Source: Hylemonella gracilis ATCC 19624 (lineage in GTDB: Bacteria; Pseudomonadota; Gammaproteobacteria; Burkholderiales; Burkholderiaceae_C). Taken from it: a stretch of 64,000 nt of DNA. The stretch is from positions 1 through 64,000 of the forward strand of contig NZ_AEGR01000060.1 in NCBI RefSeq assembly GCF_000211835.1, written 5' to 3'. The translations under genes and the position numbers were made by a program. This document shows, piece by piece, positions 28,136-49,401 of this stretch. Position 1 is the first letter of the stretch. Each line of letters opens with the position of its first letter. The notes beneath the pieces are model-generated. The model was not told where the DNA came from. It was given only the letters and a program-made list of their open reading frames with translations, and ran no database searches.

Positions 28136-29776
<1,641 letters not shown>

Positions 29777-29785
29777 GGGCGGGTT

Positions 29786-29816
29786 CCGGAAAAAGGAAAA
29801 GCAGGCCGGGCCTGCT
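29786..29816 (-). terminator. Rho-independent terminator after the enamidase gene
   Basis: The arms agcaggc/gcctgct (29800-29816) with a three-base loop are followed on the minus strand by tttcctttttcc. This ends the fpr-tetR-enamidase transcript just before the prfC start. Confidence 0.85.
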
Positions 29817-29871: not shown

Positions 29872-31068
29872 TCAGTGCGCGCCGACCACCACCGGAATTT
29901 CCGTGGCCGGTGGCGTGTTGCGGCTACGGCCGCAGCGCACGATGCCGTCGATCATCACCATGCCGATGCCGGGGATGTCGCCGAGCTGCACGCTTTCGAG
30001 CAGGGTCTTGCCAGCGGTGTGTTGCGCGCGGTCCATGAACACGAAATCGGCCGCGCGGCCGACTTCGACCAGGCCGCAGTTCAACTGGCGCATGCGCGCC
30101 GTGTTGCCAGTGGCGAAGCCGAACACCACCTCGGCCGGGATATTGGCGAAGCTGGAGATCAGCGCGATCATTCGCAGCATGCCCAACGGCTGCACACCCG
30201 AGCCCGCCGGGCCGTCGGTGCCCAGGATCACGCGGTGCGGGCATTTGAGCTCGATGGCCGCGCGCGCGGCTTCGATCGCGATCTTCTCGTTGCCGTTGTG
30301 CACGATCTCGATGGCGCGGGTGGACTTTTCGCACAGTTCGCACACGTGCTTCCACGGCAGCGAGGTGTGGCCACCGTTGATGTGGCCGATGACGTCGGCG
30401 TCCGCTTCCAGCACCACATCCTTGTCGATCAGGCCCGAGCCGGGAATCGACGGGCCACCTGTGTGGATGGTGCTCTGGATGCCGTGCTTGCGGGCCCAGG
30501 CGACCATTTGCTTGGCTTCCTCGCCGGCCTTGACCGAGCCCAGGCCCACTTCGCCCAGCAGCTTCACGCCGGCGTCGGCCAGGTCCTTGAAATCCTGCTC
30601 GGTCATGCCTTTTTCGATGACTGGCGCACCGGCGATCACCTTCACGCCGCCGGGGCGGAAGTTGTCGAAGGCGCGCTGCGCGGTGATGGCCAGTGCCTTC
30701 AGGCCGACGATGTCCTTGGGGCGGCCGGGCAGGTGCACTTCGCCGGCGGAGATCATGGTGGTCACGCCGCCGTTCATGGTGGAGTCGATCCAGCCGATCT
30801 GGTTTTGCCGTGGTGTCCAGTCGCCGAAGACGGGGTGCACGTGGCTGTCGATCAGGCCGGGCGCCAGGCAGGTGCCGCGCGCGTCCACCACCGTGGTCGC
30901 GCCCTCGGTGTCGCAATCCTTGGCTTTGCCGACGGCGGTGATCAGGCCGTCATGCACCACGATGGTGTCGGCATCGAGGATGGGGCGGTCGATGTCGCCC
31001 GACAGCAACAGGCCAATGTTGCGGATGACGACCTTGCCCGATTTGCCGGTGGCTGCAGCTTCTGCCAT
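29872..31068 (-). CDS. ena: Enamidase (1,4,5,6-tetrahydro-6-oxonicotinate hydrolase)
   Basis: Metal-dependent amidohydrolase of 398 residues, close in length to the enamidase of Eubacterium barkeri, which opens tetrahydro-6-oxonicotinate to 2-formylglutarate and ammonia. The HxH motif is His76/His78 in LIDSHVHPVFGDW; further likely ligands are Lys180 or a nearby acid, His202 (TIHTGG), His229 (VIGHINGG) and Asp285 (LGTDGPAG), consistent with a two-metal site. There is no signal peptide. The start at 31068 follows aggag. It is the last gene of a minus-strand unit with a TetR regulator and ferredoxin-NADP reductase, divergent from the 6-hydroxynicotinate reductase gene, which supports this specific function over a generic imidazolonepropionase-like hydrolase. 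Confidence 0.85.
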   Translation of the reverse strand: MAEAAATGKSGKVVIRNIGLLLSGDIDRPILDADTIVVHDGLITAVGKAKDCDTEGATTVVDARGTCLAPGLIDSHVHPVFGDWTPRQNQIGWIDSTMNGGVTTMISAGEVHLPGRPKDIVGLKALAITAQRAFDNFRPGGVKVIAGAPVIEKGMTEQDFKDLADAGVKLLGEVGLGSVKAGEEAKQMVAWARKHGIQSTIHTGGPSIPGSGLIDKDVVLEADADVIGHINGGHTSLPWKHVCELCEKSTRAIEIVHNGNEKIAIEAARAAIELKCPHRVILGTDGPAGSGVQPLGMLRMIALISSFANIPAEVVFGFATGNTARMRQLNCGLVEVGRAADFVFMDRAQHTAGKTLLESVQLGDIPGIGMVMIDGIVRCGRSRNTPPATEIPVVVGAH

Positions 31069-31123
31069 GGGAACTCCTGGTTTCGTGGGGGACTGGTAGC
31101 GGACAGTCGCTGGCGCACGGAGG

Positions 31124-31828
31124 CTAAGCAGCAGCTCGACCGGTCGAATGGACCTTGCGCAGCACGGTGTCCAGGACGAAGGCCTTCCAATGCGCGACCG
31201 CCTCGGGCAAGGCAATGTCCTCGCCCAGGAAGCTGCTCAGCGTGTAACGGTTGGACATGTGGAAATAGCCGCTTGCGGCGATCAGCAGGTACAGGTCGCG
31301 CGCCGAGACATCCTTGCGGAAGATGCCCCGCGTGGCGCCGTTTTCAAGGATCTGCGCCAGCAGCGAGATCAGCTGCGACGAGTACTCGCGCGCCCGGCTC
31401 GATTTGCCGATGTGCTTGCCCTTGTGCAGGTTCTCGGTGTTGAGCAGGGTGACGAACTCCGGATGCGCGCGGTAGTAGTCCATCACGAAGTGCGTCATCC
31501 GGGTGAGCGCTTCCACCGGCTGGTCGACGTCGAGGTCCAGTTCGGCCTCGGCCTCGTTCATGCGGCGGTAGATTTCCTCGATGACCTGGATGTACAAGCC
31601 TTCCTTGCTGCCGAAGTAGTAATAGATCATCCGGTCGTACGACTTCGCCAGGCGCGAGATTTTCTCGACGCTGCCGCCGTCGTAACCGTGCTTGGAGAAG
31701 ACCTTGATTGCCGCGCGCAGGATGCTGTCACGGGTGTTCTGCGCGTTCTGCTCGCGCACGCCCGTGCCGCGGCGCGCGGCGACGGGGGTCTTGGGCTTGC
31801 GCGCCGAGGTGGTTTTGGACGTGGCCAT
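31124..31828 (-). CDS. TetR/AcrR-family regulator of the nicotinate cluster
   Basis: The 234-residue protein has a basic Ala/Lys/Thr-rich leader, then the helix-turn-helix from about residue 27: NTRDSILRAAIKVFSKHGYDGGSVEKIS...YYYFGSKEGLY. The C-terminal ligand domain is of the TetR_C type with VMDYYRAHPEF and a long Ser/Arg-rich helix. It lies between the ferredoxin reductase and enamidase genes. A GTG at 31846 overlaps the reductase stop as GTGA and could be the start instead of ATG 31828. It most likely represses both arms of the cluster through the divergent region near 32.7 kb, with a pathway intermediate as inducer; this is inferred. Confidence 0.85.
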   Translation of the reverse strand: MATSKTTSARKPKTPVAARRGTGVREQNAQNTRDSILRAAIKVFSKHGYDGGSVEKISRLAKSYDRMIYYYFGSKEGLYIQVIEEIYRRMNEAEAELDLDVDQPVEALTRMTHFVMDYYRAHPEFVTLLNTENLHKGKHIGKSSRAREYSSQLISLLAQILENGATRGIFRKDVSARDLYLLIAASGYFHMSNRYTLSSFLGEDIALPEAVAHWKAFVLDTVLRKVHSTGRAAA

Positions 31829-31842
31829 CGACGGGCGTTCCG

Positions 31843-32616
31843 TCACTTCTCGACGAAGGCGCGCTCGATCACGAAGTCACCGGGCGTGGTGGTGTTGCCT
31901 TCGACGAAGCCGCGCTCTTCCAGCATGGCCTTCAGGTCGGTCAGCATGCCCGGGCTGCCGCAGATCATCACGCGGTCGTCCTCTCGCTTGAGTGGCGGCA
32001 GGCTCAGGTCGGAGAACAGCTTGCCGGACGTGATGAGGTCGGTGACCCGGCCCATGTTGCGGTAGGGCTCGCGCGTGACGGTGGGGTAATACAGCAGCTT
32101 CTGGCGGACCATTTCGCCCAGGAACTCGTGCTGCGGCAAATGGTCCGTCATGAGGTCGTGGTAGGCCAGTTCGTCCACCTGGCGCACGCCATGCACCAGG
32201 ATGACTTGTTCGAAGCGTTCGTAGGTCTCGGGGTCGCGGACGACGCTCAGGAAGGGCGCCAGCCCAGTTCCGGTGGACAGCATGTACAGGCGCTTGCCAG
32301 GCAGCAGGTAGTCGATCAGCAGCGTGCCGGTCGGCTTCTTGCCGACGATGAGGGTGTCGCCCACCTTGATGTGCTGCAGCCGCGAGGTGAGCGGGCCTTC
32401 CTCCACCTTGATGCTGAGGAACTCAAGGTGTTCCTCGTAGTTGGCGCTGGCGATGCTGTAGGCGCGCAGCAGCGGCTTGTCGTTGACGCGCAGGCCAATC
32501 ATGGTGAAGTGACCATTGGAGAAGCGCAGCGCCGGGTCGCGCGTGGTGGTGAAGGAAAACAGTCTGTCGGTCCAGTGGTGCACGCTCAGCACGCGCTCCT
32601 CATTGAATGCGCTCAT
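31843..32616 (-). CDS. fpr: Ferredoxin--NADP+ reductase
   Basis: Flavoprotein of 257 residues that moves electrons between NADPH and ferredoxin or flavodoxin. The FAD motif is LLRAYSIASANYEEHLEF, the pyrophosphate/NADP motif MLSTGTGLAPFLSVV, and the C-terminus IERAFVEK is the usual end of the bacterial Fpr group. It is the first gene of the minus-strand arm, directly opposite 6-hydroxynicotinate reductase, whose studied relative is a ferredoxin-dependent flavin/iron-sulfur enzyme. So it probably feeds that enzyme. No ferredoxin gene is present in the window; one encoded elsewhere must be used. Confidence 0.92.
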   Translation of the reverse strand: MSAFNEERVLSVHHWTDRLFSFTTTRDPALRFSNGHFTMIGLRVNDKPLLRAYSIASANYEEHLEFLSIKVEEGPLTSRLQHIKVGDTLIVGKKPTGTLLIDYLLPGKRLYMLSTGTGLAPFLSVVRDPETYERFEQVILVHGVRQVDELAYHDLMTDHLPQHEFLGEMVRQKLLYYPTVTREPYRNMGRVTDLITSGKLFSDLSLPPLKREDDRVMICGSPGMLTDLKAMLEERGFVEGNTTTPGDFVIERAFVEK

Positions 32617-32845
32617 GGGTTCAGTTTGAAGTTTTCAAGGATGGATGAATCGGGATGCCTTGTTTTGGGGCTGCGCGGCGCGCCAAAAGCGGGCGTGAAA
32701 ACAGAGTTGCATGCGAGCATTGGATGCGCTACATTGAAAAACAAATGTAGTGAACACAACATTTTTATTTGGCAAATGCTACACAGAATGAAGCGGTCGC
32801 ACAAGCTCGGAATTCGAGCGGCGACCGTCTCGCGGAACCGCTGAA
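32617..32845. promoter_or_regulatory. Divergent control region of the nicotinate cluster
   Basis: The 229 bases between fpr and the reductase gene include the most AT-rich patch of the neighbourhood (about 32730-32785). It holds an inverted repeat ctacatt (32729-32735) / aatgtag (32744-32750) with an eight-base spacer of mostly A, and a related element caaatgctac at 32773-32782. Both arms of the cluster must start here. The repeat is a plausible TetR operator; promoter boxes cannot be placed with confidence. Confidence 0.6.
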
Positions 32846-34516
32846 ATGACCGAACACACCAAGACGGACGGGCTTCCCGACGCCGATTCTTCCACACTGC
32901 CGCAGGCGCTCGGGCATGCCCGGCCTCGCAGCGAGCGCATGGGCGGCGACAAGGTCGAGTGCAACGCCTGTCCGGTGCTTTGCCAGATTTCCGACGGTCG
33001 TTGCGGGGCCTGTGACCGCTATGCGAACCAGGGTGGCGTGCTGGTGCGAGTGGACCCGGTCGTGGTGCTGCGGCGCACGCTGGCGCGGGAGGACGCGAGT
33101 CTGGTGCCCTTCGCTGGACGCAGCCGGGGTGAACTGGCGGCCCGGGAGGCCGAGCCGCGGACGGCGGCGTCTGGCGAGCCCGTGACGGCGGTTGACGTGG
33201 CTGATGCCGTGACACCCGCGTGGAATGGCGACTTGTTGCGGGCGGAGGATGTCTTCGTCACTGGCGTCGGGTCTTCCACCACTTATCCCGACTACAAGCC
33301 GGCGCCCTTCATCGTGTCATCCAAGGTCCGTGACGTGGACATGGTGACCGTGGTCACCGAGGGCATCTTCAGCTACTGCAGTTTCAAGGTGAAGATCGAT
33401 ACCGACCGCTTTCTCGGCGCCGAGCAGGCCAATGTGCGCTGCAAGGGCGAGGTGGTCGGCCACGTGACCACCGCCGAATACGGCTCGCAGATGCTGTCGC
33501 TGGGCGGCGTCCATCACCTGACCGGTGGCAGCAAGAAGGAAGGTCGCATCACCGCCGAGGTGATGCGGGAGCTGGGCAACCGCCAGGCGGTGGAGTTGAC
33601 CATCGACGGTGGCGCGCAGCTCGTCATCGAAGCGGGCAAGGCGCCCATCGTCAACGGCGTGCAGGAGCAACGCATGCGCGTGGGCTGCGGCTCGGCGGCG
33701 GTCGGCATCTTCGCGCAGCAGTTCGCGGGCCTCGCGGACGAAGTGGTGGTGGTGGACGACCACATCACCGGCGTGCTGACGGAGCACCAGGCGGGTCGCT
33801 GCCTGGACATGCCGCGCTCGGGCATCCAGATGCGCGGTCGCAAATCGACGCCGGGCCGCTATTTCCAGGTGGCCAATCCGGGCACGGGCTGGGGTGGCAC
33901 CGACATCGCTGATCCGCTGTCCATCATCGAAGGCTGGGACGAGGGCGTCGCGCGGCCAGGCCTGCGGTTGCTGATGACATCAACCACCGGCGAGCATGCC
34001 TCGTGGTACGTGCTCGACGATGCGCTCAGGCCGGTGGAGCAGGCCATGCCACCCGAGGTGCGAGCCATCGTGGAGCGCATCGGCGCGAACTGCGAGCCAT
34101 CGTTGTGCACGGTGCTGTTCCTGGGCGGCGCGGGCGGCTCCTTGCGGGCCGGCGTGACCGAGAACCCGGTGCTGCTCACGCGTGCCATCAAGCGGGCTCT
34201 GGTCAACGTCACCTGTGGCGGCGCGCCGGCTTATGTGTGGCCCGGCGGCGGCATCACGGTGATGGTCGACGTGACGCGGATGCCGGCCAACAGCTTCGGC
34301 ACCGTGCCCACGCCGGCCATCGTCGCGCCCATCGAATTCAGCATGCGGCTGGCCGACTACCAGGCCCTCGGTGGCCACATGGATTACGTGCGCGATCTGC
34401 GCGAGGTGCTGCGCAGCGGCGCGTGGCACAACGATGGCGCGCCCATGTCGCTGCAATGGGCGCCTGGCGGCGGAGGCAACCCCTGGCCGCTGGTCAACGG
34501 TCCTCAATTGGGCTGA
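32846..34516 (+). CDS. hnr: 6-hydroxynicotinate reductase
   Basis: The 556-residue iron-sulfur protein is called from its match in character to 6-hydroxynicotinate reductase of Eubacterium barkeri, which reduces 6-hydroxynicotinate to 1,4,5,6-tetrahydro-6-oxonicotinate with reduced ferredoxin and carries a covalent flavin. An N-terminal cluster motif VECNACPVLCQISDGRCGAC gives C39, C42, C46, C53 and C56. The remainder is rich in Gly loops (FVTGVGSSTTYPDYKPAPF, LGGVHHLTGGSKKEG, VWPGGGITVMVDV). Enamidase, which uses the product, is encoded opposite, and nicotinate dehydrogenase, which makes the substrate, is encoded at the end of the same strand run. A ring-opening barbiturase-type hydrolase was considered and dropped because of the Cys motif. 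Confidence 0.82.
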   Translation: MTEHTKTDGLPDADSSTLPQALGHARPRSERMGGDKVECNACPVLCQISDGRCGACDRYANQGGVLVRVDPVVVLRRTLAREDASLVPFAGRSRGELAAREAEPRTAASGEPVTAVDVADAVTPAWNGDLLRAEDVFVTGVGSSTTYPDYKPAPFIVSSKVRDVDMVTVVTEGIFSYCSFKVKIDTDRFLGAEQANVRCKGEVVGHVTTAEYGSQMLSLGGVHHLTGGSKKEGRITAEVMRELGNRQAVELTIDGGAQLVIEAGKAPIVNGVQEQRMRVGCGSAAVGIFAQQFAGLADEVVVVDDHITGVLTEHQAGRCLDMPRSGIQMRGRKSTPGRYFQVANPGTGWGGTDIADPLSIIEGWDEGVARPGLRLLMTSTTGEHASWYVLDDALRPVEQAMPPEVRAIVERIGANCEPSLCTVLFLGGAGGSLRAGVTENPVLLTRAIKRALVNVTCGGAPAYVWPGGGITVMVDVTRMPANSFGTVPTPAIVAPIEFSMRLADYQALGGHMDYVRDLREVLRSGAWHNDGAPMSLQWAPGGGGNPWPLVNGPQLG

Positions 34517-34531
34517 ACGGGAGCGACCACC

Positions 34532-35497
34532 ATGCCCGCGCAGCGCTCACTTCTGTCTGACGGGCGCTGGCATTTTCAGCATGGTCCGATCGACATCGTG
34601 ATTGGCGCGCAAGCCCGCGATGCATGGGGCGAGCGCGCCGTTGCCGACGCGCACGAGGCGGCCTGGCGGCGCTTCGTGCCGCTGCTGGATGAATTGGTGG
34701 GTGAACTGCCCCTGCTCCGACGGCCGATCGAAGTCGATGCGGAACCGCAAGCCTGTCCCATGGCGGGCATCGTCGCGCGTCGCATGTGGCATGCCTGCGC
34801 GCCGTTTCGCGCCCCCTTCATCACGCCCATGGCCGCGGTGGCCGGCGCGGTGGCGCAGGAACTGATCGCCTGCTACCAGCGTGAAGGCATCGCGCGCGCC
34901 TGGGTCAATAACGGCGGTGACATCGCGCTGCATCTGGCCCCGGGCGCCTCGGCGCGCATCGGCTTGTATGCGGATATCGCTCGCCTGACGGCGCGTGAAG
35001 CCTTGCGCGGCGTGTCCGTGGACGGCCAGTTCGAGGTGACGCACGCCATGCCGGTGCGCGGCGTGGCGACGAGCGGCTGGCGCGGTCGCAGCTTCTCGCT
35101 GGGCATCGCCGACAGCGTGACGGTGCTGGCCGACACGGCCGCCGCCGCCGACGCGGCCGCCACCGTCATCGCCAATGCGGTGGACGTGGACGACGCGGCC
35201 ATCGTGCGACAGCCCGCGAACGAGCTTCGCGACGACAGTGATCTCGGCGCGATGCCCGTCACGGTGGACGTGCCGCCGCTGGCGCCGCGGCGCGTGACCG
35301 AGGCGCTGGCGGCCGGGCTGCGTCGCGCCGGTGCGCTCCAGGCGGCAGGGCGGATCGCCGGCGCGATCCTGGTGTGCCAGGGCCAGGTGCGCGTGACGGA
35401 AGGTGGACTTGGCGGCACGGCACCGGGTGTCTCGGCGCTGGTTCTGGGTGCTGAAGCTGGCTCGGTATTTGCTAGAACTGGTTCAGTGTTTGCTTAA
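34532..35497 (+). CDS. UPF0280 / ApbE-like family protein
   Basis: The 321-residue protein belongs to UPF0280, which shares the fold of the flavin transferase ApbE. Visible blocks are PMAAVAGAVAQELIACYQREG, AWVNNGGDIALHL, GVATSGWRGRSFSLGIADSVTVLA and ADAAATVIANAVDVDD, the order seen in ApbE-type proteins (a Gly-Asp loop and an Asp/Thr metal site). It begins 15 bases after the 6-hydroxynicotinate reductase stop. Since the studied reductase has covalently bound flavin, a role in flavin attachment or insertion is attractive, but it is inference from context; UPF0280 proteins have no proven activity that I know of. Confidence 0.8.
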   Translation: MPAQRSLLSDGRWHFQHGPIDIVIGAQARDAWGERAVADAHEAAWRRFVPLLDELVGELPLLRRPIEVDAEPQACPMAGIVARRMWHACAPFRAPFITPMAAVAGAVAQELIACYQREGIARAWVNNGGDIALHLAPGASARIGLYADIARLTAREALRGVSVDGQFEVTHAMPVRGVATSGWRGRSFSLGIADSVTVLADTAAAADAAATVIANAVDVDDAAIVRQPANELRDDSDLGAMPVTVDVPPLAPRRVTEALAAGLRRAGALQAAGRIAGAILVCQGQVRVTEGGLGGTAPGVSALVLGAEAGSVFARTGSVFA

Positions 35498-35533
35498 CGA
35501 AATGCATGGAGTTCTTTCCATGGTGCACAACCC

Positions 35534-36178
35534 ATGATCGAGATACGACGCATCGCCACGCAGGTGGAGGAAATCCGCCACGAGTTCGGACCGCCAGCCG
35601 CGCAGCCGCTGCTACGCGGCGCGATCAGCGTCGTGCTCACCAATCCATACGCGGGTCGCTACGAGCCCGACATCCTGCCGATGATGGACGCACTGCAGGA
35701 CGTCGGCGTGGACATGGCGCGCCGCCTGCTCGTGACCATGGCGGTGCCGAAGGAGCGCATCGGCACCTACGGCAAGGGAGCCATCGTCGGTGAGCGGGGT
35801 GAGCTGGAACATGGCGCGCTCTGGCACGTGCCCGGTGGCTACGCCATGCGCGAGCTGCTGGGCTGGAAGGGCGATCGCGCGCAGTACCAGGCGGGCGCCA
35901 TCACCGAGAAGAAGACGGGGCAGCCCGGCAACGCACTGGCCATCGTGCCTTCGACCAAGAAAGTCGGCCCGCCCGGCGTGACGCTGGACGTGCCGCTCAC
36001 CAACATCAATGCGGCTTACGTGCGTGGACAGTTCGATGCGATGGAAGTCCGCGTGCCCGGCTCGCCGCTGCCGGATGAGGTGGTTTACATCCTCGCGATG
36101 ACCACGGGCTATCGCGTGCATGAGCGTGTGGGTGGCTTGCGGGCCGAGAACATCGCGTTATGGGACGGTCAGCGCTGA
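35534..36178 (+). CDS. PF06684 (DUF1185, 'amino acid synthesis') family protein, copy 1
   Basis: A 214-residue cytosolic protein of the family whose first structure, from Bordetella, showed a variant chorismate-mutase-like fold without known activity. Conserved blocks shared with the next gene are NPYAGRY, TYGKGAIVGERGELEHGALWHVP (split by a few substitutions in the second copy), TLDVPLTNINAAYVRGQFDAMEVRV and HERVGGL. The start at 35534 lies 36 bases after the UPF0280 gene. Its position between reductase and transporter genes suggests a role in nicotinate ring catabolism, perhaps after ring opening; this is inferred only. Confidence 0.82.
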   Translation: MIEIRRIATQVEEIRHEFGPPAAQPLLRGAISVVLTNPYAGRYEPDILPMMDALQDVGVDMARRLLVTMAVPKERIGTYGKGAIVGERGELEHGALWHVPGGYAMRELLGWKGDRAQYQAGAITEKKTGQPGNALAIVPSTKKVGPPGVTLDVPLTNINAAYVRGQFDAMEVRVPGSPLPDEVVYILAMTTGYRVHERVGGLRAENIALWDGQR

Positions 36179-36219
36179 GCGCGGACTCGACGACACGGAC
36201 ACAGGAGCAGCAGATTCCA

Positions 36220-36804
36220 ATGAGCGCCAACATTCGCAAGATCGTCGTCCAGGTGGACGAAACCCGCGTCGAAATGGGCAAACCCATCGACCCGCCCACG
36301 CGCCGCGCGCTGGCCATGGCGGTCATCGCCAATCCGTACGCTGGTAGCTACTCCGAAAACCTTGACCAGTTGATTGCCATCGGTGAAGAACTCGGCGGCT
36401 TGCTGGGTGACAAGTGTGTCAAGGCACTCGGCATCGAGCCCGGCCAGGCCCAAAGCTACGGCAAGGCCGCGATCGTGGGCGAGGCCGGTGAACTCGAACA
36501 CGCCGCCGCCATCCTCCATCCCAAGCTGGGCGCGCCGCTGCGCGTGGCGGTCGAAAAGGGAGCGGCGCTCGTGCCGTCCGCCAAGAAGCGTGGTGGCATG
36601 GGCACAGCCATCGACGTGCCGCTGGGCCACAAGGACGCGGCCTTCGTGCGCAGCCATTTCGATGCCATGGAGGCACGCGTGTCGGACGCGCCGCGCGCCA
36701 ACGAAATCGTGGTCGCCGTGGTCGTGACGGACAGCGGCCGGCCGCTGCCGCGCATCGGCGGTCTGCAGGTCCACGAGATCAAGGGGCAGGACGGATTGCG
36801 CTGA
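36220..36804 (+). CDS. PF06684 (DUF1185, 'amino acid synthesis') family protein, copy 2
   Basis: The 194-residue paralogue of the preceding gene keeps NPYAGSY, SYGKAAIVGEAGELEHAAAILHP, AIDVPLGHKDAAFVRSHFDAMEARV and RIGGLQVHEI, at roughly one-third identity by eye. It lacks the extra segment of about 15 residues that copy 1 has in the middle. The start at 36220 follows acaggagcag. Two diverged copies in tandem point to a hetero-oligomer or to two successive reactions. Confidence 0.82.
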   Translation: MSANIRKIVVQVDETRVEMGKPIDPPTRRALAMAVIANPYAGSYSENLDQLIAIGEELGGLLGDKCVKALGIEPGQAQSYGKAAIVGEAGELEHAAAILHPKLGAPLRVAVEKGAALVPSAKKRGGMGTAIDVPLGHKDAAFVRSHFDAMEARVSDAPRANEIVVAVVVTDSGRPLPRIGGLQVHEIKGQDGLR

Positions 36805-36884
36805 GCGCGCCCGTGTCTCCGCCTGTTCCGTCGAACGAATCCTTACACCCCTTCCTCAACCCCAAGCCAGCCAGGAGCCCTTCC

Positions 36885-38096: not shown

Positions 38097-38168
38097 TCCG
38101 TCCCGCCACCGCCGCGCCCGGGCGCTCCCCGAGCGCGGCGGTGTTCTCCTACGCCCACGGATGCCCGC

Positions 38169-40070
38169 ATGAGTTTTTCCGGTTTCGTCGTCCAGTTGCT
38201 CAATGGCTTGGCCAGCGCGTCGTCGCTGTTCCTGGTGGCGGCTGGCCTGTCGCTGATCTTCGGTGTCACCCGCATCGTCAACTTCGCGCATGGCTCCTTC
38301 TTCATGGTGGGCATCTATGTCGCCTACTCGTTGGTCGACAAGTTCGCCGACAGCCTGGGCTTCTGGCCTGCGCTGGTGGTGGCGGCGCTGGTCGTTGGCG
38401 CGCTCGGCGCGCTGATCGAAATCCTGCTGCTGCGGCGCATCTACAAGGCGCCCGAGCTGTTTCAATTGCTGGCCACCTTCGCGCTGGTGCTGGTGATCAA
38501 GGACGTGGTGCTTTACCTCTGGGGCCCGGACGAACTGCTGGGGCCGCGCGCGCCGGGTTTGCGCGGCGCGGTGACCATCCTCGGACGGCAGTTCCCCGCG
38601 TATGACCTGTTCCTCATCGTCGTTGGGCCAGTGGTGCTCGGCCTGGTGTGGCTGCTGCTGACGCGCACGCGCTTCGGCACGCTGGTGCGCGCGGCCACGC
38701 AAGACCGTGAAATGGTGAGCGCGCTGGGCGTCAACCAAGCCTGGCTGTTCACGGCCGTGTTCGCGCTGGGAGCCTTCCTGGCCGGCCTGGGCGGCGCGCT
38801 GCAACTGCCGCGCGAACCCGCCACGCTGGAGATGGACCTGCACACCATTGGCGCGGCCTTTGTCGTGGTGGTGGTCGGGGGCATGGGTTCGCTGCCCGGT
38901 GCCTATGTCGCCGCGCTGCTCATCGCCGAGATCAAGGCGGTGTGCATCTGGCTCGGCGTCGTGGATCTGTTCGGGTTGCAGATTTCGTTTTCCAAACTCA
39001 CGCTGGTCGTGGATTTCCTGGTGATGGCGGCCGTGCTCGTGTGGCGCCCCTGGGGCCTGATGGGCAAGCCGCAGGCCGCGAGCCGTTATGTCGGCATGCA
39101 GGAGGAACCCCTGCGCCGTCCGGGCCCCGCTTACCTCACTGCGGCGGTCGTCTTCGCGCTGGCGCTGGTGGCCGTGCCCGTGCTCGCGCCCGACTCCCCG
39201 TACACGCTGGTGCTGCTGATCGACTTGCTGATCGCCGCGCTGTTCGCGGCCAGTTTGCACTTCATCATGGGACCGGCGGGCATGCATTCCTTCGGCCACT
39301 CGGCCTACTTCGGGCTGGGGGCTTACGGAGCGGCCCTGCTGGTGCGCGCCAGCGGTCTGCCGATGGAGGTGGCGCTCATCGTCGCGCCCGTGGCGGCAGC
39401 GCTCGGCGCGCTGGTGTTCGGCTGGTTCGCGGTGCGTCTCTCGGGCGTGTACCTGGCCATGCTCACGCTGGCCTTCTCGCAGATCACCTGGGGCATCACC
39501 TACCAGTGGGACAGCTTCACCGGTGGTAGTAACGGTTTGACCGGTGTCTGGCCATCGGACTGGCTGTCCGACAAGCGCGCCTATTACTGGGTCACCTTGG
39601 CGCTTGTGGGCATCGGCGTGTGGTGGCTGCGGCGCGTGCTGTTCTCGCCCTTCGGCTACGCGCTGCGCGCGGGGCGCGACTCGGCGCTGCGCGCCGACGC
39701 GATCGGCATCGACGCCAAGCGCATGCAGTGGACGGCCTTTGTCGTAGCCGGGGCGGTGGCCGGCCTGGCGGGCGCGCTGTTCGCGTTCTCCAAAGGCAGC
39801 ATTTCGCCCGAGAGCCTGTCGGTGAGCAAGTCGGTGGATGGTCTGGTCATGGTGCTGCTTGGCGGCATCCAGACCCTCGCGGGACCGGTGGTGGGCGCGT
39901 TCACATTCACCTGGCTGCATGACACCGTGGCCCGCAACACGGATTACTGGCGCGCCATGCTCGGCGCCATCATCCTCATCTTGGTGCTGCTTTTCCCGCA
40001 GGGCCTCGCCGGCTTCGCGAAGCAGGCGTTCGACAGACTCCGTGGCCGCGGCGCGGAGGTGAAGTCATGA
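38169..40070 (+). CDS. LIV-type ABC transporter, fused LivH-LivM permease
   Basis: A 633-residue inner-membrane protein in which the two permeases are one chain. The LivH half (about 1-300) begins LLNGLASASSLFLVAAGLSL with GVTRIVNFAHGSFFMVG. The LivM half (about 310-620) carries HFIMGPAGMHSFGHSAYFGLGAYGA and the EAA-type loop GRDSALRADAIGIDAKRMQW. Usually these are separate genes; the joining segment here follows PWGLMGKPQAAS. The stop overlaps the ATPase start as ATGA. Confidence 0.92.
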   Translation: MSFSGFVVQLLNGLASASSLFLVAAGLSLIFGVTRIVNFAHGSFFMVGIYVAYSLVDKFADSLGFWPALVVAALVVGALGALIEILLLRRIYKAPELFQLLATFALVLVIKDVVLYLWGPDELLGPRAPGLRGAVTILGRQFPAYDLFLIVVGPVVLGLVWLLLTRTRFGTLVRAATQDREMVSALGVNQAWLFTAVFALGAFLAGLGGALQLPREPATLEMDLHTIGAAFVVVVVGGMGSLPGAYVAALLIAEIKAVCIWLGVVDLFGLQISFSKLTLVVDFLVMAAVLVWRPWGLMGKPQAASRYVGMQEEPLRRPGPAYLTAAVVFALALVAVPVLAPDSPYTLVLLIDLLIAALFAASLHFIMGPAGMHSFGHSAYFGLGAYGAALLVRASGLPMEVALIVAPVAAALGALVFGWFAVRLSGVYLAMLTLAFSQITWGITYQWDSFTGGSNGLTGVWPSDWLSDKRAYYWVTLALVGIGVWWLRRVLFSPFGYALRAGRDSALRADAIGIDAKRMQWTAFVVAGAVAGLAGALFAFSKGSISPESLSVSKSVDGLVMVLLGGIQTLAGPVVGAFTFTWLHDTVARNTDYWRAMLGAIILILVLLFPQGLAGFAKQAFDRLRGRGAEVKS

Positions 40071-40843
40071 GCAGCACGAAACCCCTGCTGCAGGTCAGCA
40101 ACCTGGGCAAATCCTTCGGCGGCGTGAAGGCCGTGGACGGTATCCACTTCAACCTCGCAGCCGGCGAACTGCTGGCGCTCATCGGTCCCAACGGCGCGGG
40201 CAAGACGACGACCTTCAACATGGTCAACGGCCAGCTGCCAGCCGACCAGGGTTCCATCCGCCTGGGCGGGGAGGAGCTCGTGGGCCGCAAGCCGCGCGAC
40301 ATCTGGCGACTCGGCGTGGGCCGCACCTTCCAGATCGCCGAGACCTTTGCTTCGCTGACCGTGGTGGAGAACGTGCAGATGGCGCTGCTGTCGCATGACC
40401 GCCAGCTGTTTTCGATGTGGCGCCGCGCTGCCGACTACCGGCGCGACGACGCGCTGAATCTGCTCGACCAGGTGGGCATGAAGTCGCAGGCCGACCGGCC
40501 TTGCAGCGTGCTCGCCTACGGCGACGTCAAGCGCGTGGAACTCGCCATCGCGATGGCCAACGCGCCCAAGCTGCTGCTGATGGACGAGCCCACGGCCGGC
40601 ATGGCGCCCAAGGAACGCAATGAACTGATGGCGCTCACCAAGCAGCTGGTGGTGAGCCGTGGCATGGCGGTGCTCTTCACCGAGCACAGCATGGACGTGG
40701 TGTTCGCCTATGCTGACCGCATGATCGTGCTGGCGCGCGGTCGACTCATCGCCGAAGGCAAGCCGCTCGACATCCGCGACCATCCGAAGGTGCAGGAGGT
40801 TTACTTCGGCACCGGCAAGACCTTCGAAAAGGAGGCCGCATGA
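40067..40843 (+). CDS. LIV-type ABC transporter ATP-binding protein, LivG type
   Basis: The 258-residue ATPase has Walker A GPNGAGKTT, LivG-type GVGRTFQIAETFASLTVVENVQ, Walker B LLLMDEPTAGMAPKE and the switch His in FTEHSMDVVF. The signature region reads LAYGDVKRVELAIAMA rather than the common LSYGQQR-like form. Both ends overlap neighbouring genes by four bases, so the transporter genes are translationally coupled. Confidence 0.92.
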   Translation: MSSTKPLLQVSNLGKSFGGVKAVDGIHFNLAAGELLALIGPNGAGKTTTFNMVNGQLPADQGSIRLGGEELVGRKPRDIWRLGVGRTFQIAETFASLTVVENVQMALLSHDRQLFSMWRRAADYRRDDALNLLDQVGMKSQADRPCSVLAYGDVKRVELAIAMANAPKLLLMDEPTAGMAPKERNELMALTKQLVVSRGMAVLFTEHSMDVVFAYADRMIVLARGRLIAEGKPLDIRDHPKVQEVYFGTGKTFEKEAA

Positions 40844-41568
40844 ACGACGTCCTGCTCAAGGCCAAAGGCCTCGCGGCCTGGTATGGCGCCGCGCAAATCC
40901 TGTTCGACGTCGACCTCGAAGTGCGGCGCGGGGAAGTCGTTGCGCTCATGGGGCGCAACGGCGCGGGCAAATCCACCACGCTCAAGGCCCTCATCGGCAT
41001 GCTGGCACGCCGCCGCGGCTCGATCGAATTCATGGGCCATGACATTTCTCGTGGTGAACCGCACCATGCCGCGCGTCTGGGCCTCGGTTTCGTGCCGGAA
41101 GACCGCCGCGTGTTCACCGACCTCACGGTGATGGAAAACCTCGAAGTTGGCAGGCAGGCCGCGCGCCGCTGGCCCGATGGCAGCGACGCGCCGCTGTGGG
41201 TGGCCGAACGCCTGTTCAAGCTCTTCCCCAACCTCGGTGAAATGCCCGGCCGTCCTGGCGGCCGCATGAGCGGCGGCGAGCAGCAGATGCTCACCGTCGC
41301 GCGCACGCTCATGGGCAACCCCTTCCTCGTGCTGCTCGACGAGCCGTCCGAGGGCGTGGCGCCGGTCATCGTGGAGCAGATGGCGCAGATGATCCTCGAG
41401 CTCAAGTCGCAGGGCGTGAGCATCCTGCTGTCCGAGCAGAACATGCATTTCGCGGAGCTGGTGTCCGACCGGGCCTACGTGCTCGAGAAAGGCCAGATCC
41501 GCCACGAGGCCCCGATGACCGAGCTCGCCGCCAACGAGGAAGTGCGGCGGGCCTACCTCAGCGTCTGA
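40840..41568 (+). CDS. LIV-type ABC transporter ATP-binding protein, LivF type
   Basis: Second ATPase, 242 residues: GRNGAGKST, GLGFVPEDRRVFTDLTVMENLEVG (the LivF hallmark), signature MSGGEQQMLTVARTL, Walker B FLVLLDEPSEGVAPV and SEQNMHFA. It pairs with the LivG-type subunit. Its stop codon is at 41566-41568 and the nicotinamidase gene starts 29 bases later. Confidence 0.92.
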   Translation: MNDVLLKAKGLAAWYGAAQILFDVDLEVRRGEVVALMGRNGAGKSTTLKALIGMLARRRGSIEFMGHDISRGEPHHAARLGLGFVPEDRRVFTDLTVMENLEVGRQAARRWPDGSDAPLWVAERLFKLFPNLGEMPGRPGGRMSGGEQQMLTVARTLMGNPFLVLLDEPSEGVAPVIVEQMAQMILELKSQGVSILLSEQNMHFAELVSDRAYVLEKGQIRHEAPMTELAANEEVRRAYLSV

Positions 41569-41597
41569 TGGTTTTCTTCAACCCAGGAGCACACAGC

Positions 41598-42335
41598 ATG
41601 GATACCCCGAATCTGATGAATCGCAGAAACCTGATCAAGGCCGCGGCCGCGCTGGGCGCGGTCGGTGGTCTCGGCGTGGCGGCGCCACTGATGGCCGCGG
41701 GCAAGATCAAACCCAAGGCCAATTCGGCGCTGATCGTGGTCGATGTGCAGAACTGCTTCGTCGACGGCGGCACGCTGCCGGTCAAGGGCGGCGCGGACGT
41801 GGTGCCTGTCATCAACGCCATGGCACCCGCCTTCGAGAACATCGTCGTCACGCAGGATTGGCACACCGAAGGCCATGCCTCGTTCGCGAGCACCTATGGC
41901 GGCAAGAAACCGTTCGAGACCACCAAGCTGTCCTACGGCTCCCAGGTGCTCTGGCCTGACCACTGCGTGCAGGGAACCGACGACGCCGCGCTGCACAGCG
42001 GCCTGAAACTGCCGACGGCGCAGCTCATCATCCGCAAGGGATTCCACAAGAGCGTGGACAGCTATTCCGCCTTCGAGGAGGCCGACCGCAAGACCACCAC
42101 GGGCCTGGCGGGCTACCTCAAGGCGCGGGGCATCAAGACCGTGTTCGTCACCGGTCTGGCCACCGACTTCTGCGTGGCCTGGACCGCGATGGACGCGCGC
42201 AAACTCGGCTTCGAGGTCTACGTGATCGAGGACGCGACGCGCGCGATCGACCTCAACGGTTCGCTCGCCGCGGCCTGGAAGCAGATGCAGGCCCAAGGCG
42301 TCAAGCGCATACAGTCTGCCGACATCGCAGTCTGA
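41598..42335 (+). CDS. Nicotinamidase with twin-arginine signal
   Basis: The 245-residue isochorismatase-fold hydrolase converts nicotinamide to nicotinate and ammonia. The catalytic triad is Asp49 (LIVVDVQNCF), Lys147 (IIRKGFHKSVDSYSAF) and Cys192 (LATDFCVAW). The metal site is Asp87, His89, His93 (DWHTEGHASF) and His122. All match PncA. Unlike the cytosolic PncA, it has an N-terminal export signal: Arg9-Arg10 in NRRNLIKAAAALGAVGGLG, a Tat pattern, with cleavage plausible near LMAAG. The start at 41598 follows ccaggagc. Periplasmic action just upstream of a nicotinate importer makes sense and would spare cytosolic NAD recycling. Confidence 0.88.
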   Translation: MDTPNLMNRRNLIKAAAALGAVGGLGVAAPLMAAGKIKPKANSALIVVDVQNCFVDGGTLPVKGGADVVPVINAMAPAFENIVVTQDWHTEGHASFASTYGGKKPFETTKLSYGSQVLWPDHCVQGTDDAALHSGLKLPTAQLIIRKGFHKSVDSYSAFEEADRKTTTGLAGYLKARGIKTVFVTGLATDFCVAWTAMDARKLGFEVYVIEDATRAIDLNGSLAAAWKQMQAQGVKRIQSADIAV

Positions 42336-42358
42336 ACGCGGGCCTGGCGTTTCTTGCG

Positions 42359-42859
42359 ATGCACGCCCCGTCACCGCCCTCACTCAGGCTGTGCGTCAAT
42401 GGCGCGGTGCATGAGGTGGGGGTCGCGCCCACCGCGCCGCTGCTCGCGGTGCTGCGCAACGACCTGGGGCTCAACGGTCCCAAGTACGGCTGTGGCCTGG
42501 GCGAGTGTGGCGCCTGCACTGTGTTGATCGACGGCGTGGCGGCACGCGCCTGCGTCATTCCCGCCGGTGGCGTGGTGGGGCGGGAGATCACCTCGCTCGA
42601 AGGCCTGGGCACGCGCGCCATGCCGCACCCCGTGCAGCGGGCCTTCATCGATGAGCAGGCAGCGCAATGCGGCTACTGCCTCAACGGCATGGTCATGATG
42701 GCGGCGGCGCTGCTGGCGCGCGACCCGTGTGCCGATGAGGCCGCGATCCGCCGGGAACTGTCGGGCAATCTGTGCCGCTGCGGCACGCATGTGGAAATCG
42801 TGCGCGCCGTGCTGAGGGCGGCAACCAACGTCGCACCATCCGGAGCTCACACGCCATGA
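42359..42859 (+). CDS. nicA: Nicotinate dehydrogenase small subunit, [2Fe-2S] protein (NicA-like)
   Basis: The 166-residue electron-transfer subunit of a molybdenum hydroxylase. The plant-type [2Fe-2S] ligands are C45, C50, C53 and C65 (KYGCGLGECGACTVL and RAC). The second cluster is bound by C104, C107, C139 and C141 (QCGYCLNGM, NLCRCGTH). It takes electrons from the molybdopterin subunit encoded next, whose start overlaps this stop as ATGA. No separate FAD subunit gene exists, which fits the NicAB type of Pseudomonas putida rather than the clostridial NdhFSLM type. Confidence 0.92.
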   Translation: MHAPSPPSLRLCVNGAVHEVGVAPTAPLLAVLRNDLGLNGPKYGCGLGECGACTVLIDGVAARACVIPAGGVVGREITSLEGLGTRAMPHPVQRAFIDEQAAQCGYCLNGMVMMAAALLARDPCADEAAIRRELSGNLCRCGTHVEIVRAVLRAATNVAPSGAHTP

Positions 42860-45800
42860 CGCGCCGCGCCGATGCGCCGTTGACGCGCGCCGACTTTCAC
42901 GCAGCACGCGGTGTCCTGCTGGTCACCCGCCATCCACCGCCTCCGCCCGTGCCGGTGCCCGGGCAGCCGGCCGCCGTGCCGGCCAATCCGGCCGAGGGCG
43001 TCGAAATCCTTGTGGCAGTGTGGGACGACGGCAGCGTGACAGCGCTCCATGGACACGTGGACCTGGGCACCGGTATTCGCACGGCGCTCACGCAGATCGT
43101 GGCCGAAGAGCTGGACGTGCCGATGGACCGGGTGAACATGGTGCTGGGCGATACCACGCGCGCGCCCAACCAGGGCGCGACCATCGCGAGCGCGTCGATC
43201 CAGATCCATGCGGTGCCGCTCAGGCTGGCGGCTGCGCAGGCGCGGCACTGGCTGCTCGCGCGAGCCGCGGCGCGGCTGCAGGTCGATGTCGCTGGCCTGG
43301 CGGTGCGGGAGGGCGTCGTGCACGACGCGGCCGGCGGGCGCTCGATCACCTACGGTGAACTGGTGGGTGGGGATCATGTCGAGTTGAGTCTGGACCCGGG
43401 TACGCCCGTCAAGCTGCCCGCCGACTACACGCTCGTCGGCACCCGCGCGCCGCGTGTGGACCTGGTGGCCAAGGCCACCGGTGAACTGGTCTTCGTGCAT
43501 GACATGCGCGTGCCCGGCATGCTGCATGGCCGTGTCGTGCGGCCGCCGTACGCGGGCGCTGACCATGGGGACTTCATCGGCAACACGCTCGAGTCGGTGG
43601 ACGAATCGTCGATCGCGCATATTCCGGGCATCCGCGCGGTGGTGGTGATCCGCGATTTCGTCGGTGTCGTGGCCGAGCGCGAGGAAGATGCCGAGCAGGC
43701 CATGCGCGAACTGCGCGTCGCCTGGAGATCCTGGCCGGGTCTGCCGCCGCTGGACGACCTCGCGCAGGCGCTGCGCACCCAGCCTTCCACGCCGCGGCGG
43801 CTGGTGGACGAGGGCGACGTCGACGCGGCGCTCGCGGGTGCGGCGCAGGCCATGCCGCGCACCTACGTCTGGCCATATCAGATGCATGCCTCGCTCGGTC
43901 CGTCGTGCGCGGTGGCCGACTGGCGCGCGGACGGCGAAGGCGGCGCGGCGCGCATGACCGTGTGGGCCGGCACGCAGAACCCGCACGTGCTGCGCGCCGA
44001 CCTCGCGCGCCTGATGGGCATGCCCGACCTTTCGATCGACCTGATCCGCATGGAAGCCGCGGGCTGCTACGGTCGCAATTGTGCGGACGACGTCGCCGCG
44101 GACGCCGCGCTGCTGTCGCGCGCTGCGGGCGCGCCGGTGCGGGTGCAGCTCACGCGTGAGCAGGAAAACGCCTGGGAACCCAAGGGCGCGGCGCAGCTGA
44201 TGCAGGTGCGCGGCGGACTCAACGCGGACGGATCGATCGCGGCCTATGACTTCGAGACCTCCTATCCCTCCAATGGTGCGCCCACGCTGGCCTTGCTGCT
44301 CACGCGCGTCATCGAGCCGCTGGCGCAGGCCTATGAGATGGGTGACCGCACGGCGCGCCCGCCCTACACGCTGGACAACCTGCGCGTCACGGTCAACGAC
44401 ATGGCGCCCATCGTGCGCGCATCCTGGCTGCGCGGCGTGTCCGCCCTGCCCAACAGCTTTGCGCACGAGTCCTACTTCGACGAACTGGCCACCGCCGCGG
44501 GTGAAGATCCGGTGGCTTTCCGCCTGCGGCATTTGCAGGACGCGCGCGCGGCGGAGCTGGTGCGTGCCACGGCCGAGCGCGCGGGCTGGCGTGTGCATAC
44601 CGGGCCGAAGCAGGGGCCGCAGGCAGGTGGTGAGGGCGACATCGTCAGCGGCCAGGGCTTCGCCTATGCGCGCTACGTGCACAGCAAATGGCCAGGCTTC
44701 GGCGCCGCCTGGGCCGCGTGGGTGGCCGACGTGGACGTCAACCGCAGAACCGGCGAAGTACAGGTCCGGCGCGTGGTGGTGGGACATGATGCGGGCCTGC
44801 TCATCAATCCGGCGGGCGTCGAGCACCAGGTGCACGGCAATGTGCTGCAGACGACGAGCCGTGCGCTCAAGGAACAGGTCGGCTTCACCGCCGGCGAGCG
44901 CCCGCCCGCGCAGTCGGCGCGCACGGTGCCCGTGCCGCAGGCGCCGCCGGTGCAGAACCTCGAATGGGGCGCTTACCCGATCCTGAGTTTTCGCGACGTG
45001 CCGGTGATTGAGGTCTTGCACATGCCGAGGCCGGACGAACCTTCGCTCGGTGCCGGTGAATCGGCGTCGGTGCCTGGCACGGCGGCTATCGCCAACGCCA
45101 TCTTCGACGCGACGGGCGTGCGTCTGCGTCAGCCGCCGTTCACGCCGGAGACGGTGCGTGCGGCGCTGCAGTCTTCCGTTGAGCCGCAAGGCGGTGACGC
45201 GGGCGCGCAGGCGCGGCCGGCGCCTTGGCCGGCCTCGGGCGGGACTGGAACCGAGACTCGTTGGCCATGGGGCGCGATGCCGCCCCGAACGCGGGGCTGG
45301 CTGGCGCGAGGGCTGACGATGACGGCGGGCGTGCTCGGGCTCGGTGCGGCACTGCTCGGCTGGCGGCCGGCCATCGCGCCGGTGGCGCCGTCAACTTCTT
45401 CACCCTACAGCGCTGCCACGCTGGAAAAGGGCCGCCGGCTCGCCGCTGCCGGCGACTGCGCGGTCTGCCACACGCAGTCGGGCGGCACGGTCAACGCCGG
45501 AGGGCGCGCCCTGCGCACGCCTTTCGGCACGATCTACAGCACCAATCTCACACCCGACGTCGAGACGGGCATCGGTCTGTGGTCCTTCAGCGCCTTCCAG
45601 CGCGCGATGCGTGCAGGCATTTCCCGCGATGGCCGTCACCTCTACCCGGCGTTTCCGTACACCGCGTTCGCGAAGACGAGCGACGAGGACCTGGAGGCGC
45701 TGTACGCCTACCTGATGGCGCAGCCCGCCGCGCGCGCCCCCACGCCAGCGCCGGAGCTGACTTTTCCCTTCAACGTGCGTCCCCTGATGGCGGCCTGGAA

Positions 45801-46596
45801 CGGCCTGTTCCATGACCCCGCGCCCTACCAGCCCGTGACGACGCAGACGCCCGAATGGAACCGGGGCGCCTACCTCGTCAATGGCCTCGGGCACTGCAGT
45901 GCCTGCCATACGCCGCGCAATGCCTTCGGTGCCGAAAAATCCGGCGAACCCGCCTGGTTGTCCGGCGCGTTCATTGATGGCTGGGAAGCTCCAGCGCTCA
46001 CCGCGCTGTCGCGCGCGCCGATGCCCTGGACGAGGGAGGATCTCTATGCCTACCTGCGCCAAGGCTACAGCCGCAACCATGGCACGGCCTCGGGGCCGAT
46101 GGCACCGGTGATCGAGGGCTTGCAGGCCCTGCCGGACGCCGACATTCGCGCGATGGCGACCTACCTCGCTTCGTTCAATGTTCCGGCGGCCGGAGAGTCT
46201 GGTTCAACGCCCGCGCCTCACGCTGAGGCATGGGTGGCCGCGGCGCAAACCGCTGCGCCACCGCCTGGTGCCGGGCAGCGGATCTTTGACGGCGCCTGCG
46301 CGGCCTGTCACCACGATGGCGACGGCCCCCGACTGCTGGGCGTCAATGTTCCGCTCGCGCTCAATACCAATCTGCACAGCGACCGTCCGGACAATCTGCT
46401 GCGCGTGATCCTCGATGGCATCCGCGAACCGGCCACGCGCGACATCGGGTTCATGCCGGGATTCCGCCATGCGTTCAGTGATGCGCAGCTCGCCGAACTG
46501 GCTGGGTACATGCGCGCGCGTTTCGCGCCGGACAAACCGGTCTGGCGCGATTTGCCGGCGCAGGTGGCCCGGCTGCGTCAACTGCCCCCGCACTGA
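42856..46596 (+). CDS. nicB: Nicotinate dehydrogenase large subunit: molybdopterin domain, membrane anchor and three cytochrome c domains (NicB-like)
   Basis: The 1246-residue protein hydroxylates nicotinate at C6 with water and sends electrons to the respiratory chain. Residues 1-800 are the molybdenum-binding part of the xanthine dehydrogenase family (HGHVDLGTGIRTALTQIVAEEL, GDTTRAPNQGATIASASIQ, active-site Glu735 in LGAGESASVPGTAAIAN). A short hydrophobic helix at about 820-836 follows. The C-terminal 400 residues hold three c-type haem motifs: C868-C871-H872, C1014-C1017-H1018 and C1148-C1151-H1152. The helix would place the haem domains in the periplasm and the Mo domain in the cytoplasm. 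The domain order matches NicB of P. putida. No molybdenum-insertion (XdhC-like) gene is in the window. Confidence 0.92.
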   Translation: MTRRADAPLTRADFHAARGVLLVTRHPPPPPVPVPGQPAAVPANPAEGVEILVAVWDDGSVTALHGHVDLGTGIRTALTQIVAEELDVPMDRVNMVLGDTTRAPNQGATIASASIQIHAVPLRLAAAQARHWLLARAAARLQVDVAGLAVREGVVHDAAGGRSITYGELVGGDHVELSLDPGTPVKLPADYTLVGTRAPRVDLVAKATGELVFVHDMRVPGMLHGRVVRPPYAGADHGDFIGNTLESVDESSIAHIPGIRAVVVIRDFVGVVAEREEDAEQAMRELRVAWRSWPGLPPLDDLAQALRTQPSTPRRLVDEGDVDAALAGAAQAMPRTYVWPYQMHASLGPSCAVADWRADGEGGAARMTVWAGTQNPHVLRADLARLMGMPDLSIDLIRMEAAGCYGRNCADDVAADAALLSRAAGAPVRVQLTREQENAWEPKGAAQLMQVRGGLNADGSIAAYDFETSYPSNGAPTLALLLTRVIEPLAQAYEMGDRTARPPYTLDNLRVTVNDMAPIVRASWLRGVSALPNSFAHESYFDELATAAGEDPVAFRLRHLQDARAAELVRATAERAGWRVHTGPKQGPQAGGEGDIVSGQGFAYARYVHSKWPGFGAAWAAWVADVDVNRRTGEVQVRRVVVGHDAGLLINPAGVEHQVHGNVLQTTSRALKEQVGFTAGERPPAQSARTVPVPQAPPVQNLEWGAYPILSFRDVPVIEVLHMPRPDEPSLGAGESASVPGTAAIANAIFDATGVRLRQPPFTPETVRAALQSSVEPQGGDAGAQARPAPWPASGGTGTETRWPWGAMPPRTRGWLARGLTMTAGVLGLGAALLGWRPAIAPVAPSTSSPYSAATLEKGRRLAAAGDCAVCHTQSGGTVNAGGRALRTPFGTIYSTNLTPDVETGIGLWSFSAFQRAMRAGISRDGRHLYPAFPYTAFAKTSDEDLEALYAYLMAQPAARAPTPAPELTFPFNVRPLMAAWNGLFHDPAPYQPVTTQTPEWNRGAYLVNGLGHCSACHTPRNAFGAEKSGEPAWLSGAFIDGWEAPALTALSRAPMPWTREDLYAYLRQGYSRNHGTASGPMAPVIEGLQALPDADIRAMATYLASFNVPAAGESGSTPAPHAEAWVAAAQTAAPPPGAGQRIFDGACAACHHDGDGPRLLGVNVPLALNTNLHSDRPDNLLRVILDGIREPATRDIGFMPGFRHAFSDAQLAELAGYMRARFAPDKPVWRDLPAQVARLRQLPPH

Positions 46597-47757: not shown

Positions 47758-47798
47758 GCCGGATGGCATCGTTTCGTGCGCGCGTTACAATCTGCAGC

Positions 47799-47897
47799 GT
47801 TCGAGGAGCGTTGCAGCCCTTGCGCCTGTCCCGCAGGCCCAGAGGTGAGGCTCGAACCCCAGGGCGGCAGGCCCTGCCTTCCAACTGCGCTCACCCA
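47799..47897 (+). promoter_or_regulatory. SAH riboswitch upstream of ahcY
   Basis: Conserved pieces of the S-adenosylhomocysteine riboswitch occur in order: gaggagcgttgcag (47803-47816), ccc...aggctcga about 35-50 bases later, and the terminal ctgcgctcaccc (47885-47896), whose gcgct pairs back to agcg(t) near the start. The element ends 78 bases before ahcY. It turns on the SAH hydrolase gene when its substrate accumulates, and this is the usual place for it in betaproteobacteria. Confidence 0.88.
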
Positions 47898-47974
47898 CCG
47901 GTCGTCGTGGTGTGAGGTCTTCCCCGCGCGCGGCGGCTCCGGTGGTGTTCAACCGCTACAGCCTTGGAGTTCCC

Positions 47975-49401
<1,427 letters not shown>

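Follow-up and report, generated by a model that had tools for sequence, protein, structure and literature searches.

A probable nicotinamide/nicotinate catabolic island in Hylemonella gracilis and the UPF0280 companion of its putative 6-hydroxynicotinate reductase

A 64,000-nucleotide stretch of the genome of Hylemonella gracilis ATCC 19624 (contig NZ_AEGR01000060.1, positions 1 to 64,000; G000:C56:1-64000, hereafter the window, from an assembly of 3.62 Mb in 115 contigs that is 99.55% complete) contains an insert of ~18 kb that carries nicotinamide and nicotinate genes and is bounded by prfC (28136-29776, minus strand) and ahcY (47912-49402, plus strand). We conclude that this insert is very probably a horizontally acquired island for nicotinamide/nicotinate catabolism by the route of Azorhizobium caulinodans. 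Genes for a nicotinate dehydrogenase, 6-hydroxynicotinate reductase (Hnr) and enamidase lie in one cluster, as in an Azorhizobium-type route. A second and more tentative proposal concerns a UPF0280 protein encoded directly after hnr, which we suggest may handle a cofactor for Hnr.

Gene content of the island and the proposed pathway

The genes for the enamidase, a TetR-family regulator and a ferredoxin-NADP(+) reductase (FNR)-type protein lie on the minus strand. On the plus strand the order is hnr, the UPF0280 gene, two AA_synth genes, a four-gene ATP-binding cassette (ABC) transporter, a nicotinamidase gene, nicA and nicB, with fnr and hnr diverging across a 229-bp spacer (32617-32845). The GC content at third codon positions, 0.80-0.90, is coding-like in the island genes. 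Every gene named in a preliminary description of this DNA is present at about the position given there, around the divergent fnr-hnr region; the UPF0280 protein, the two AA_synth proteins and the four-gene, branched-chain-type nature of the transporter had been omitted from it.

In the pathway that we propose, nicotinamide would be deamidated outside the cytoplasm by a nicotinamidase exported through the twin-arginine translocation (Tat) system, and the ABC transporter would bring in nicotinate. NicAB would convert nicotinate to 6-hydroxynicotinate, passing electrons via the cytochromes of NicB to the respiratory chain. Hnr would reduce 6-hydroxynicotinate to tetrahydro-6-oxonicotinate with NADPH electrons delivered through the FNR-type protein, and the enamidase would then open the ring of this product, giving 2-formylglutarate and ammonia. 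From there the carbon would continue through glutarate and glutaryl-CoA, and TetR may govern both divergent transcripts.

The enamidase (ena, 29872..31068, minus strand; Amidohydro_1; ATG start placed as in the congener G400) matches the solved Eubacterium barkeri enamidase 2VUN with an E-value of 3.2e-108 over residues 60-439 of the long reading frame. The HVH, GEVGLG, HTGG and HINGG motifs, and the Asp that follows the VILG/VIFG strand, are all identical in the alignment, and we take these HxH, Glu, His and Asp positions to be the metal ligands. The FNR-type NADPH reductase, the likely electron supply of Hnr (31843..32616, minus strand; FAD_binding_6, NAD_binding_1), scores 155.7 bits against the ferredoxin--NADP(+) reductase model PRK10926, under its cut-off of 390.

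NicA (42359..42859, plus strand) has two 2Fe-2S domains (Fer2, Fer2_2), and NicB (42856..46596, plus strand; 1246 aa) is a molybdopterin subunit (MoCoBD_1, MoCoBD_2) fused to three cytochrome c domains, with CxxCH motifs at 868, 1014 and 1148 and GAGE at 732; the pair thus has the architecture of a NicAB-type dehydrogenase. The four transporter genes, all on the plus strand, encode a substrate-binding protein of the branched-chain type (36813..38096; Peripla_BP_6), fused permeases (38169..40070; two stretches of BPD_transp_2), a LivG-like ATPase (40067..40843) and a LivF/UrtE-like ATPase (40840..41568).

The nicotinamidase (41568..42335, plus strand; PRK11609, 181.7 bits, cut-off 174) begins with a Tat-like signal, which scores 19.5 bits with TIGR01409 (cut-off 16.7) and 22.4 bits with Pfam TAT_signal, narrowly under the cut-off of 22.7. 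The reading frame was recovered in 44 of 97 loci, and 41 of these 44 proteins start, as judged by eye, with twin arginines ahead of a hydrophobic stretch; those of L073, L131 and L122 lack such a start. No title or abstract among the matches listed in our literature search names a Tat-exported or periplasmic nicotinamidase. If exported, the enzyme would spare the cell's own nicotinamide.

Genes for the glutarate branch are present in the genome, and may serve the nicotinate pathway. The gcdH product matches solved Burkholderia-type glutaryl-CoA dehydrogenases (3eom) with an E-value of 1.8e-222, and a CoA-transferase family III gene stands directly after gcdH. A succinate-semialdehyde-type dehydrogenase lies over the cut-off of its model (SSADH), and there are two COX1 terminal oxidase genes.

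Hnr

The product of hnr (32846..34516, plus strand) has no counterpart among Pfam or NCBIfam families at E <= 0.001. In the PDB, sequence comparison revealed no relative (a profile search gave nothing at E <= 0.1), and a fold search with the model of the protein (pLDDT 71.9) gave no hit at E <= 0.001. Pfam (E 0.008, below cut-off) and Foldseek (1woo, E 0.28) hint weakly at the barrel of a glycine-cleavage T-protein. Of 109 sequences, 108 retain the four cysteines C39, C42, C46 and C56, whose spacing would suit an iron-sulphur cluster. Relatives of Hnr occur in 26 PLSDB plasmid records, many of them annotated as 6-hydroxynicotinate reductase. Twelve of these plasmids are from Sulfitobacter by organism name, and 23 are predicted to be non-mobilizable.

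Distribution of the cluster and exchange of the entry dehydrogenase

A scan of contigs gave 340 confirmed Hnr relatives, and the best 80, mostly from Burkholderiales such as Acidovorax, Variovorax and Polaromonas, were used for the counts by locus. Gene order is conserved across these loci. Counting genes with an identity of at least 40%, all 80 contain hnr and the UPF0280 gene, 80 and 79 the two AA_synth genes, 78 the enamidase, 78 TetR and 77 FNR; further to the right, where many of the loci end, the ATPases are found in 76 and 74, NicA in 75, NicB in 66 and the nicotinamidase in 48. Given this recurrence, the arrangement of the island is not due to chance.

The entry dehydrogenase was surveyed in 17 fetched regions of 20 kb around hnr. 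It is of the NicB type in eight of them (three of which end before the cytochrome part) and, in another eight, a three-part enzyme of the xanthine-dehydrogenase type, in which FAD has a subunit of its own and the 2Fe-2S and molybdopterin domains are fused; none is in view in the remaining region. The entry dehydrogenase is therefore exchangeable, and the FAD type would presumably need no cytochromes. MarR genes are common in these regions, TetR was found in three and FNR in five (two edge-cut), while Hnr and UPF0280 are present in all 17.

Two variations on the cluster were seen in passing. In an alphaproteobacterial-type cluster (L119:14932-16236), a nicotinate phosphoribosyltransferase gene directly after nicB ties degradation to NAD salvage. 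In several loci (for example L010:19669-20841), nicA is separated from the ATPase or nicotinamidase genes by a gene for a second ABC substrate-binding protein.

A UPF0280 protein accompanies Hnr

The UPF0280 (DUF375) gene (34532..35497, plus strand) matches NF003322 with 387.1 bits, over the cut-off of 290. In a survey of 398 Pseudomonadota genomes, 33 had a match to Hnr, 32 of them strong; G147 (Hnr, E 2.8e-4) and two genomes with UPF0280 matches under cut-off (G293, G373) were dropped before the counts. NF003322 lies over its cut-off in exactly the 32 genomes with a strong Hnr, which span 16 genera, and in each of the 32 the UPF0280 match stands at most 0.5 kb downstream of hnr on the same strand, by match coordinates. 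Among the control genomes, only those of M. jannaschii and M. acetivorans gave matches to UPF0280, both under cut-off.

The AA_synth proteins (35534..36178, PF06684 E 3.4e-62; 36160..36804, PF06684 E 7.6e-72 and 2QTP E 1.6e-84; both plus strand) were considered as a second such companion. PF06684 occurs in 59 of the 398 genomes, comprising 31 of the 32 with a strong Hnr (G139 is the one without) and 28 others. Since these 28 lie beyond the strong-Hnr set, AA_synth is not specific to Hnr, and we rejected the link.

The model of the UPF0280 protein (pLDDT 90.0) matches 2o34 as well as the FmnB and ApbE flavin transferases at E <= 0.001 (TMq 0.36-0.49). The protein thus has an ApbE-like fold, whereas the Asp-Ser-His triad of that family was not found entire. 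In ApbE this triad is conserved, with the His as general base, according to passages of PMC12052999. The UPF0280 profile aligns with E. coli Ftp at an E-value of 5e-5 (probability 67.5). The serine of TSG and the aspartate of ADA are retained, Ser181 and Asp207 being invariant in 38 sequences, yet the profile is without the stretch that holds SHVIDP in Ftp.

There are three possible explanations for these observations. The first is that UPF0280 is a cofactor-handling partner or a subunit of Hnr, rather than a standard flavin mononucleotide (FMN) transferase, and this is the hypothesis that we favour. The second, that UPF0280 works as an FMN transferase of the usual ApbE type and flavinylates Hnr or another island protein, seems unlikely to us. 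It would account for the fold and for the retained Ser and Asp positions, and PMC12052999 describes a cytosolic ApbE that acts on a cytosolic reductase. However, the stretch of the catalytic His is shortened, and a histidine occurs in this region in only 5 of the 37 UPF0280 sequences (of 38) that are readable there, at two different positions; furthermore, no [ST]GAT motif is present in the 17 proteins scanned, Hnr included, and the Pfam ApbE model gives 16.6 bits, below its cut-off of 25.6.

The third explanation, which we doubt to the same degree, is that UPF0280 is functionally unrelated to Hnr and does no more than share an operon with its gene. Operon linkage can by itself produce co-occurrence, the NF003322 profile may itself derive from such neighbours, and AA_synth, likewise in the operon, turned out to be unspecific. 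Against this stand the tight placement of UPF0280 in every strong-Hnr genome and the lack of any other genome over cut-off among the 398. The pairing also holds across 16 genera and across exchanged entry dehydrogenases, and AA_synth is missing from G139.

Taking UPF0280 as a partner of Hnr further, we are evenly balanced between belief and doubt on a fuller proposal: that UPF0280 is a dedicated, catalytically altered protein of the ApbE fold, which would load flavin or another cofactor into Hnr or form a subunit of it, and that the pair of Hnr and UPF0280 would be what stays constant in reductive pyridine catabolism, with varied hydroxylases and uptake genes plugged onto it. UPF0280 is not named in the literature that we searched.

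A candidate operator in the fnr-hnr spacer

The TetR-family protein (31124..31846, minus strand; TetR_N, TetR_C_29) is probably the regulator of the island. A candidate operator for it, CTACATT-N-AATGTAG with an overlapping second inverted repeat, lies in the fnr-hnr spacer at 32727..32764. On either strand, ATGTAG occurs 180 times in 76 fnr-hnr spacers, that of the window included, compared with a mean of 5.4 and a maximum of 10 in 50 first-order Markov shuffles. At least two copies are present in 67 of the 76 spacers (shuffle mean 0.14), and the density is 6.3 per kb in the spacers against 0.23 in the flanks. These statistics overstate independence, because the loci are related. In the window alone, ATGTAGYG is not significant, with 3 matches and 11 of 100 shuffles reaching 3. 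The case for a conserved operator candidate in this spacer thus rests on the comparison across loci.

prfC-ahcY is a variable site

In 20 of 24 relatives from the same genus, prfC and ahcY, whole or partial, are found on one contig. By match coordinates, the gap between them is at most 2.6 kb in 18 of these 20, and 24.0 kb and 7.8 kb in the other two, G400 and G404. Only 2 of the 25 genomes in the genus have Hnr, that of the window and G400, several of the rest being incomplete. In DNA comparisons, the island is matched by G400 at about 92-95%; for nine relatives that lack it, homology ends at 29741-29807 and restarts at 47779-47880. Together, the nearly empty or differing gaps and the breaks in homology indicate that prfC-ahcY is a variable site, and that the island was gained here or lost elsewhere.

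Between prfC and ahcY, G404 (L165:3161-10646) has other catabolic cargo, namely an FAD monooxygenase, a LigB-type ring-opening dioxygenase whose nearest solved relative is gallate dioxygenase, two alpha/beta hydrolases and a TctC receptor protein. In G400, the gap between prfC and the enamidase (L161:2951-7297) encodes a protein of 1448 aa that has a GxxGxGKT-like P-loop close to its N-terminus and matches nothing in Pfam or PADLOC, adjoined by a 152-aa reading frame that by eye resembles a small ParE-kind toxin. In the window, a small helix-turn-helix gene (46605-47033, minus strand) follows nicB, and the gap between it and ahcY holds a 199-aa reading frame (47158-47757, plus strand) that matches neither Pfam nor NCBIfam families at E <= 0.001.

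Discussion

Several points weigh against reading the island as an Azorhizobium-type nicotinate pathway. Every reaction is inferred, as are the site of the nicotinamidase, the path of the electrons, what the transporter carries, the use of the glutarate route and the regulation. The identity of Hnr is drawn from annotated homologues and from the cluster given in PMC3511419, a paper in which the Hnr of strain SG-6C is 42% identical to that of E. barkeri. No ferredoxin gene lies inside the island, and Tat export of the nicotinamidase is suggested by its motif. The cytochrome part of NicB is nearest the cytochrome subunit of the solved aldehyde dehydrogenase 8gy3, and its molybdopterin part nearest the large subunit of the same enzyme, with the chains of the E. 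barkeri nicotinate dehydrogenase ranking lower. An aldehyde dehydrogenase is the best solved relative because no cytochrome-linked NicB is among the matches listed, and the substrate specificity assigned to NicB therefore rests on context.

That the main substrate is instead another N-heterocycle or derivative, such as 6-chloronicotinate, is improbable: the strain of PMC3511419 channels 6-chloronicotinate into the same route and NicB best matches aldehyde dehydrogenase structures, but a nicotinamidase over its cut-off lies within the operon and in 48 of 80 loci, and nicotinate phosphoribosyltransferase adjoins nicB in L119.

The preliminary description had presented the island as a hybrid, in which an aerobic dehydrogenase feeds a ring opening of the anaerobic type. 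Its chemistry, with cytochrome-linked hydroxylation, reduction of 6-hydroxynicotinate and hydrolytic opening, remains the best reading; its novelty does not hold, since the route is in PMC3511419. That paper describes the formation of tetrahydro-oxonicotinate from 6-hydroxynicotinate in E. barkeri and, for the aerobe Azorhizobium, credits the route to Kitts (1989/1992); PMC9304392 agrees on both organisms. A homologous cluster was printed in 2012 for A. caulinodans, B. japonicum, R. palustris HaA2 and strain SG-6C (PMC3511419). The hybrid was thus already in print, its chemistry in 1989-1992 and its genes in 2012. The present analysis adds the UPF0280-Hnr lead, the exchangeable front end, the Tat-like signals of the nicotinamidases, the operator candidate and the variable site.

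As given in the legend and text of PMC3511419, the Azorhizobium (AZC_2804-2790), Bradyrhizobium, Rhodopseudomonas and SG-6C cluster shares with ours the tetrahydro-6-oxonicotinate and glutarate route of an aerobe; in contrast to it, the present cluster is in a relative from the Burkholderiales, includes TetR and an FNR-type gene that diverges from hnr, and has a nicotinamidase with a Tat signal in the operon.

The E. barkeri fermentation resembles the proposed pathway in the Hnr and enamidase steps, including the 2VUN homologue, whereas its nicotinate dehydrogenase differs from the cytochrome-bearing NicAB found here; presumably it also uses other enzymes downstream of 2-formylglutarate. The nic cluster of Pseudomonas putida is alike in the architecture of its NicA/NicB-type cytochrome-linked dehydrogenase. 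Unlike that route, the present genome has no close NicC orthologue among the four best of its 13 FAD_binding_3 matches, nine weaker ones and NicX having been outside the search. The four are a 4-hydroxybenzoate 3-monooxygenase, a phenol 2-monooxygenase, a 3-hydroxybenzoate-6-monooxygenase-like protein (below cut-off) and a UbiH-type protein. The third match, L003, was the sole NicC-like candidate and was rejected as NicC, its score with vanillate 1-hydroxylase (222.9 bits) exceeding those with solved NicC (204 and 201.8 bits). The claim that the bacterium avoids oxygenases altogether can apply at most to this pathway, given the 4-hydroxybenzoate and phenol monooxygenases in the genome.

If the link between UPF0280 and Hnr is true, it would give a first testable function to an uncharacterised family, represented by PDB 2o34 and also found in two methanogens, and a handle on a pyridine-ring reductase that has no solved structural relative. 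More broadly, reductive opening of nicotinate is common in Comamonadaceae-type bacteria, which corrects the view of its aerobic use as a surprise.

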